A stretch of 64,000 nt of DNA from Lysobacterales bacterium (GTDB taxonomy: Bacteria; Pseudomonadota; Gammaproteobacteria; Xanthomonadales; Rhodanobacteraceae), in assembly GCA_002632325.1 (NCBI GenBank), contig NSJK01000002.1:186001-250000 (forward strand), written 5' to 3'. The notes beneath the pieces were generated by a model. That model was not told the DNA's origin, did no database searches, and was given only the letters and a program-made list of their open reading frames with translations. Positions within the stretch are counted from its first letter, which is position 1. Each line of letters starts with the position of its first letter. Positions 18,086-19,068 of this stretch are shown piece after piece. Made by a program: the position numbers and the translations under genes.

Positions 18086-18640
18086 CTACTCGCCACGCTC
18101 GTTGAGCTCAATGTCGCCGGTCAGCCAGGCGACGTTGATGCGCCATTCGCGCTGTCCCTGCAGCACGGCGATATGGCCCCCGGTGGAACTGCCGTCGGGG
18201 AAGAAGCGGATGCCGCCGCTGTTGCCGCCGGTGACCTCGCTCTCGGCCGTGGTCAGGCGCAGAACCATGCCCTTGGGCAATTCCCGAGCGCCCTTGCCCG
18301 GCGCGGTGTAGGCATTTTTCTCCAGATCGAGCACCAGGACCTGCGATTTGCCCTTCACGATCGCCTGCCCGCGCGTGTAGCGCAGCGCCGCCACCAGATC
18401 GCGGCTCGCAGCCCGGATCTTCGCCGACTGCAGGCTTTTGGAAAACGAAATCGAGACGATCGTCATCGCGATCGCCAGCAGCAGGATCACCGCCATCAGT
18501 TCGATGAGGGTGAAGCCGCGAGCGCGCGAGTGCGCGAGCGGTCGGGAATCGGGATTCGGGTTTCGGGAATCGGAACAGCGCGCCAGCGCGAACGCGGCTT
18601 GCGATTCCCGATTCCCGATCTCCGATTCCCGGCTTTTCAT
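18086..18640 (-). CDS. gspH: T2SS minor pseudopilin GspH with repeat-extended leader
   Basis: A 184-residue pseudopilin. The mature N-terminus is FTLIELMAVILLLAIAMTIVSI, after a cleavage site SRARG. The ATG at 18640 overlaps the gspG stop as ATGA, the coupling seen elsewhere in this operon. The leader is therefore 42 residues instead of the usual 5-15: residues ~4-33 are encoded by a GGGAATCGG-type palindromic repeat and read RESEIGNRESQ and SDSRNPNPDSR. No ATG, GTG or TTG lies in frame between the repeat and the cleavage site, so the repeat must be translated unless a CTG is used. The globular part looks intact (AASRDLVAALRYTRGQAIV). GspH is thought to link the tip complex to the GspG shaft. 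Confidence 0.9.
   Translation of the reverse strand: MKSRESEIGNRESQAAFALARCSDSRNPNPDSRPLAHSRARGFTLIELMAVILLLAIAMTIVSISFSKSLQSAKIRAASRDLVAALRYTRGQAIVKGKSQVLVLDLEKNAYTAPGKGARELPKGMVLRLTTAESEVTGGNSGGIRFFPDGSSTGGHIAVLQGQREWRINVAWLTGDIELNERGE
18543..18632. repeat. REP-like palindromic GGGAATCGG repeat inside gspH
   Basis: Two arms of about 30 bp (18543-18573 and 18603-18632), each made of three degenerate copies of CGGGAATC, face each other across a 29-bp GC-rich spacer (GCGCGCCAGCGCGAACG core). As RNA it could fold into a long imperfect hairpin. Tandem GGGAATCGG/GATTCCCG units are, from memory, common between genes in Xanthomonas-type genomes; here the element is in frame within a coding sequence. 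I saw no second copy of the full element in the window. Confidence 0.85.
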
Positions 18641-19068
18641 TGCCAGTTGCCGTAATCGGCGTTCACGCCGTCGCCACCGCTCTGGCCATCCTTGCCGAGG
18701 AAGATGATGTCGAAGTCGCCATGCTCGCCCGGCGCCTTGTACTGGAAGGCATGGCCGAACGGATCCTTGAGATCCGACTGCTTCCCGTATGGCCCTTGCC
18801 AGTTCGCGGCGTTGCCGGGCTTGCTGACCAGATCTTCCAGCCGCGCGGGCGGACTGCCGTTGTCGAGCGCATAGGAATCGATCTCGCCGGCCAGTCGGCC
18901 GACCGCGGCCTTGCCCGCACCCCATTTGCCCTTGTCGACGTTCTTGCCGACCTGCTGCACGACGATGCCGGCGACGATGCCGATCAGCACGATCACCGCG
19001 AGCATTTCGATGAGGCTGAAACCGCCCGCATGCGACCGACGATGGATGTTGCGTTGTGCCTTGTTCAT
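18637..19068 (-). CDS. gspG: T2SS major pseudopilin GspG
   Basis: The 143-residue shaft subunit of the pseudopilus. The leader MNKAQRNIHRRSHAGG is cleaved before FSLIEMLAVIVLIGIVAGIVVQQV (mature Glu5 present). The globular domain shows the GspG hallmarks: PPARLEDLVSKPGN, WQGPYGK, LKDPFGHAFQYKAPGEHGDFDI and the Ca-binding-type C-terminal loop DGQSGGDGVNADYGNW. An AGAGGAAA ribosome site precedes the ATG. A 126-bp gap separates it from gspF, more than elsewhere in the operon, so an internal promoter feeding the highly needed major pseudopilin is possible. Confidence 0.97.
   Translation of the reverse strand: MNKAQRNIHRRSHAGGFSLIEMLAVIVLIGIVAGIVVQQVGKNVDKGKWGAGKAAVGRLAGEIDSYALDNGSPPARLEDLVSKPGNAANWQGPYGKQSDLKDPFGHAFQYKAPGEHGDFDIIFLGKDGQSGGDGVNADYGNWQ

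Follow-up and report, generated by a model that had tools for sequence, protein, structure and literature searches.

Xanthomonas genomes carry a dispersed repeat built from the heptamer GGGAATC, with 70-75 inverted pairs in each genome (Rehm 2015, PMC4692102). In the parts of that account drawn on here, the arrays form convergent inverted pairs, prefer sites no more than 50 nt past a stop codon and between co-directional genes, and keep their position between species. About 90% of the copies are intergenic, and the same parts give no role that was found for them. Action through G-quadruplexes has been proposed for such arrays. Published oligonucleotides form quadruplexes in vitro, and four GGG runs are present in about half of the published members, although the definition of membership, in the text covered, does not require them (PMC4692102).

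Palindromic repeats of other kinds are also found in or beside genes. As far as they are treated in the portion of PMC10969869 used here, Rickettsia palindromic elements (Ogata 2000, 2002) are dispersed palindromes of about 150 bp that lie in frame inside protein genes unrelated to one another, where the peptide they encode is conserved. REP elements, which have RAYT transposases, are short palindromes of extragenic DNA that often follow genes and sometimes lie at ORF N-termini (PMC3733652). The malE-malF intercistronic stem is a stable stem just past the stop codon of malE, the product required in greater quantity, and its function is proven (PMC5927463). Prepilin leaders, in turn, are of variable length and have G or A as their last residue; they remain cytoplasmic until prepilin peptidase removes them (PMC10191384).

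The repeat described here, at the gspG-gspH junction, is a member of the Xanthomonas heptamer family, with which it shares the identical heptamer, the pairing, the placement and the conserved position. It differs in lying within a reading frame. Neither translation as a prepilin leader nor a species-specific change of unit at orthologous sites is treated in the parts of PMC4692102 considered. Like the Rickettsia elements, it is a dispersed palindrome within an ORF, translated as judged only from start codons. Unlike them, it lies in a leader predicted to be removed, its unit varies from species to species, and its peptide is not conserved, the leader changing equally at all codon positions. 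The GTAG/CGTC tag of REP elements was not seen in the arms, which consist of heptamer arrays instead. As at malE-malF, a stable stem lies just past the stop of the major gene; here its function would be putative, and the stem would also be translated.

The repeat at the gspG-gspH junction

The window (the whole 64-kb stretch of DNA analysed, from the genome labelled G000) contains two 28-nt arrays of GGGAATC heptamers that face each other inside gspH on the minus strand, as the initial annotation had described (Table 1). They are bounded by the ATGA shared with gspG on one side and by the prepilin cleavage site (↓) on the other, in the order ...GGCAACTGGCAATGAAAAGCC, GGGAATCGGAGATCGGGAATCGGGAATC, loop, facing arm GATTCCCGAAACCCGAATCCCGATTCCCG, ACCGCTCGCGCACTCGCGCGCTCGCGGC↓TTCACC. 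Both arms hold at least two tandem GGGANTN units, GGGAATC among them, which places them in the family. Ungapped, the arms of the window copy agree at 23 of 28 positions. Five GGGAATC-type double units occur in the window, all of them at this repeat (expected, 0.36). The junction RNA is predicted to fold with -80.8 kcal/mol (z = -5.5), and 0 of 200 shuffled sequences folded as well. The repeat is separated from the cleavage-site codons by a small GC-rich hairpin, which recurs at the same place in G012, G005, G008, G177 and G178.

Table 1. Coordinates of features at the gspG-gspH junction, as positions in the window
Feature	Position	Strand	Remark
gspH CDS	18086..18640	-	184 aa including 42-aa leader
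gspG CDS (major pseudopilin)	18637..19068	-	stop overlaps gspH start
ATGA overlap: gspH ATG (18640-18638) and gspG TGA (18639-18637)	18637..18640	-	
Putative 42-codon GspH prepilin leader	18515..18640	-	predicted cleavage G42/F43
5′ arm GGGAATCGGAGATCGGGAATCGGGAATC, heptamers GGGAATC GGAGATC GGGAATC GGGAATC	18603..18630	-	read as ...ESEIGNRES...
Loop between arms, predicted to be translated	18572..18602	-	
3′ arm, reverse-complement heptamers (plus strand GGGAATC GGGATTC GGGTTTC GGGAATC)	18544..18571	-	read as ...DSRNPNPDSR
Small GC-rich hairpin between repeat and cleavage-site codons	18518..18541 (approximate)	-	from folding

The gene was identified as gspH by its G↓F(T/S)LIE cleavage motif and its location between gspG and gspI, and its prepilin site was recognised by Pfam N_methyl (place G000:C47:204455-204529). 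GspH homologues were found in 60 of the 61 genomes searched, own genome counted, and in all 16 genomes of the genus. A plasmid search with the junction returned only short unrelated matches, and a scan of the named genome collection returned mainly distant pseudopilins.

The genome-wide count called for by the initial annotation gave about 25 heptamer sites in the own genome, and reversed-pattern controls gave 0. Copies, as judged largely in relatives, are mostly intergenic and often arranged as convergent inverted pairs, those of the own genome having been only partly classified. Irrespective of the unit, the loop-facing ends of arrays are often GGAAAAG or GGGAAAGC, and the outer flank is often GAGAGCC or AAAAGCC. 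The recurrence of these ends and flanks hints at a defined element with conserved borders. Whole-genome pattern searches found no heptamer arrays in two members of the genus, G002 and G011. A degraded palindromic heptad stem is nonetheless present at gspG-gspH in G011.

The same junction in relatives

Alignment of the junction showed a long stem in 13 of 14 readable junctions of genus relatives, heptamer-like in 11 or 12 of them; the count omits G007, whose junction falls on a contig end. The repeat is thus not a private insertion. Carriers within the genus include G000, G012, G015, G005, G008, G009 and the sister species G004. Across the 13 relatives, stem quality ranged from a clear heptad pair down to degraded forms, such as the weak stem of G010 (z -1.6); that of G002 is GC-rich and without heptads (z -1.5). 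Counted from the first base of the gspG stop, the first unit begins 9 nt further on in most junctions. Other genera (G017, G022, G024, G030, G032 and G033) likewise have heptad stems here, some clear and some degraded. Neither element nor hairpin was found there in G006 or in several other genera, so the element is not essential.

The unit itself varied. It is GGGAATC in G000, G012 and G008, GGGAATG/C in G015, GGGATTC-like in G005 and G013, and GGTGAGC in G009; in other genera it is GGGAACA (G017) or GGGAACG (G022).

Alternatively, the stem may be a selected regulatory hairpin that stabilises gspG mRNA or damps gspH translation, so as to yield more major than minor pseudopilin in the manner of the malE-malF stem, with leader coding as a by-product. 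Most of the genus has retained the stem despite differing units, it begins about 9 nt past the gspG stop, and the 5′ and 3′ arms of one copy agree at 78% whereas the same arm compared across genomes agrees at only about 50%. Differential decay through protection by 3′ stems is, moreover, established in E. coli operons (PMC5927463). Yet the same element occurs at dozens of unrelated junctions, it was lost in G006 and is absent from many genera, and the agreement of the arms may stem from template-switch correction or unit copying rather than from selection. We regard this explanation as possible, but less likely than not. The proposal that the hairpin tunes GspH is plausible: conservation of the hairpin would fit it, but the hairpin is lacking in G006.

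It is improbable that the repeat acts via G-quadruplexes. Four GGG runs are present at the junctions of G012, G015, G008, G017 and G022, but no GGG-based motif was found in the window copy or in 10 others of the 16 junctions. The GGTGAGC arrays of G009 have GG runs only, yet the inverted heptamer arrangement is kept. A G-quadruplex as the conserved feature is thus weakened.

Arrays in other prepilin leaders and in ordinary genes

Pfam N_methyl listed 70 prepilin sites in five genomes, of which 68 were readable. In a second pseudopilin operon (GspG2, H2, I2, J2, then K2 and L2) of G006, G008, G009, G012 and G015, arrays adjoin most of the GspG2, H2, I2 and J2 cleavage sites; no further arrays were detected in the 8.5-kb stretches of these five genomes holding the operon. 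The second pseudopilin operon of G000 itself is without arrays. Several leaders contain both arms and are 40-43 residues long, as in MRRLGIGNRESGMVEKRRAPHGTRHRSSDSPFPIPDSRLSSG↓FSLIE of G012. Across the family, a pattern of two ATTCCC units no more than 30 nt from a prepilin site identified paired units abutting such sites in 23 of 233 genomes, which belong to 9 of 26 genera; the reversed control gave 0 matches. These matches often fall in two to four consecutive genes. Together with the second operon, they support the proposal that prepilin leaders could be safe landing sites for the repeat, at least as a recurrent host.

Prepilin leaders are not a unique host. Most ordinary genes checked, named by reading their N-terminal peptides and scored mostly in relatives from per-row data, have a start 2-60 nt past the array: rpoC, nrdR, leuD, ilvH, atpG, phoU, ffh, hslU, ftsA, ileS, groEL, accC and valS. 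In ybgC of two genomes (L177, L216), and probably in argG of one (L186), the array seemingly runs into the conserved N-terminus with no start between. This indicates that repeat-coded N-termini are not limited to prepilins, and ybgC, probably with argG, rules out strict exclusivity.

Predicted translation of the leader

The GspH N-terminus would read MKSRESEIGNRESQAAFALARCSDSRNPNPDSRPLAHSRARG↓FTLIEL, with a leader of 42 residues. Over the 134 codons that precede the F codon, the sole in-frame ATG, GTG or TTG is the overlap ATG. The ATGA overlap and the lack of a later start codon before the cleavage site, both noted in the initial annotation, were thus borne out. An overlap ATG or GTG is weaker evidence for a start in relatives, because it arises automatically from a Gln codon (CAA or CAG) followed by TGA. 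The window sequence, CAATGA (Gln-stop), yields the overlap ATG in this way. A long leader is therefore better argued from the lack of any start further on, and it is from this lack after the arrays that we infer their translation in GspH. Whichever strand and register are read, GGGAATC is free of stop codons, so its arrays are readable; GGTGAGC contains TGA.

Reading frames across relatives are consistent with translation. In eleven translated-through junctions (ten in the genus, and G033), the gspH frame contains 0 stops and the other two frames contain 10. Where no start follows the array, nearly every junction has a gspH frame that stays open from close to the end of gspG, and length differences are multiples of three. 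Differences between G000 and G004 fall on codon positions 1, 2 and 3 as 14, 18 and 16 in the leader, against 9, 6 and 38 in the mature part. This even change in the leader, beside biased change in the mature part, suggests that the leader is read but that its sequence hardly matters.

A long leader is not obligatory, since G014 (ATG), G008 (GTG) and possibly G009 keep a normal short start past the array. In G008 and G014 the array and the overlap are in different frames, and the short start follows the array (GTG or ATG, KPQRGF). Such relatives lend something to the view that a non-standard codon beyond the repeat initiates GspH and that the leader is left untranslated. They are a minority, however. 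Besides the window copy and the frame evidence above, no start codon follows the array at 38 of 40 distinct loci examined in the family. One of the 38 (L323) is probably not a prepilin, and many of the 40 are orthologues, so that independent events number fewer than 40. We therefore consider an untranslated leader very unlikely. A CTG at codon 19, in the loop, might serve as a non-standard start; the 3′ arm would still be translated. The codon phase of the 3′ arm was also biased (27 of 33 in one phase in one count, against 16/1/23 in the family set, one phase being rare in both), but this is not used as main evidence, as orthologues are not independent.

Turnover and spread of the unit

In G009 the GGTGAGC array pattern gave 167 matches, against 0-2 in each of nine other genomes. 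Replacement of the unit there is incomplete, since 16 GGGAATC and 25 GGGATTC matches are retained. At rpoB-rpoC, atpA-atpG, the gspF start and ybgC, G009 has GGTGAGC pairs and its relatives have GGGAATC- or GTGAATC-type pairs. Orthologous junctions with different units indicate that positions are kept while units change. The G009 loci concerned are L179, L176, L177 and L183, set against L208, L023, L216 and L221 of relatives. At gspG-gspH of G032 (L166), GTGAATC occurs in the 5′ arm and GGGAATC in the 3′ arm, which suggests that the unit of one array can change independently of its partner.

No Y1 (RAYT) transposase was detected in G009, whose genome is 100% complete and array-rich, and a RAYT transposase as the mover is thus not supported. 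Tentatively, prepilin leaders in the family may have been built repeatedly from a dispersed, species-specific heptamer hairpin, turned over at conserved positions by copying or conversion with no known transposase. Of the initial claim that a mobile repeat had entered gspH, the dispersed family and its reading as leader held; a recent insertion private to the strain, which the dispersed copies might have suggested, can be dismissed, as the element is present at this junction in G004 and in most other genus members, usually with its register unchanged.

Discussion

The locus is, with high probability, an old copy of the inverted heptamer repeat of the Lysobacteraceae (Xanthomonadaceae), fixed at gspG-gspH, where it is read as the leader of GspH. 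It spans the distance from the gspG stop to the conserved mature N-terminus, at a length that leaves gspH in frame with the ATG of the overlap. A ribosome finishing gspG would start gspH at the overlap and read through the hairpin. GspH would then be inserted with its leader in the cytoplasm, and prepilin peptidase would cut off everything that the repeat encodes. The repeat would be tolerated because a leader needs little beyond basic residues and a G just ahead of the cleavage point, and the 3′ arm, through its DSR/HSR-type peptide, may help to supply these. The stem just past the gspG stop may in addition shield gspG mRNA from decay or reduce the translation of GspH, which would suit a major/minor pair. 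In tight pseudopilin operons the stretch encoding the leader is nearly the only unconstrained DNA from one stop codon to the conserved sequence that follows, so an element favouring sites just past stops would end up in it.

A species-specific unit at conserved positions poses a puzzle about how such repeats spread. Junctions that carry different heptamers, with the leader translated or not, offer a natural series for the effect of the hairpin on the ratio of major to minor pseudopilin. The repeat would also explain odd, long prepilin leaders, which gene callers may trim or misplace, and prepilin starts in this family need care. Repeat DNA may be translated at little cost where the peptide is cut off. 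Hosting of the repeat in one gene type would seem to have happened repeatedly across related bacteria, and a dispersed repeat could thus live in coding parts that are removed from the protein.
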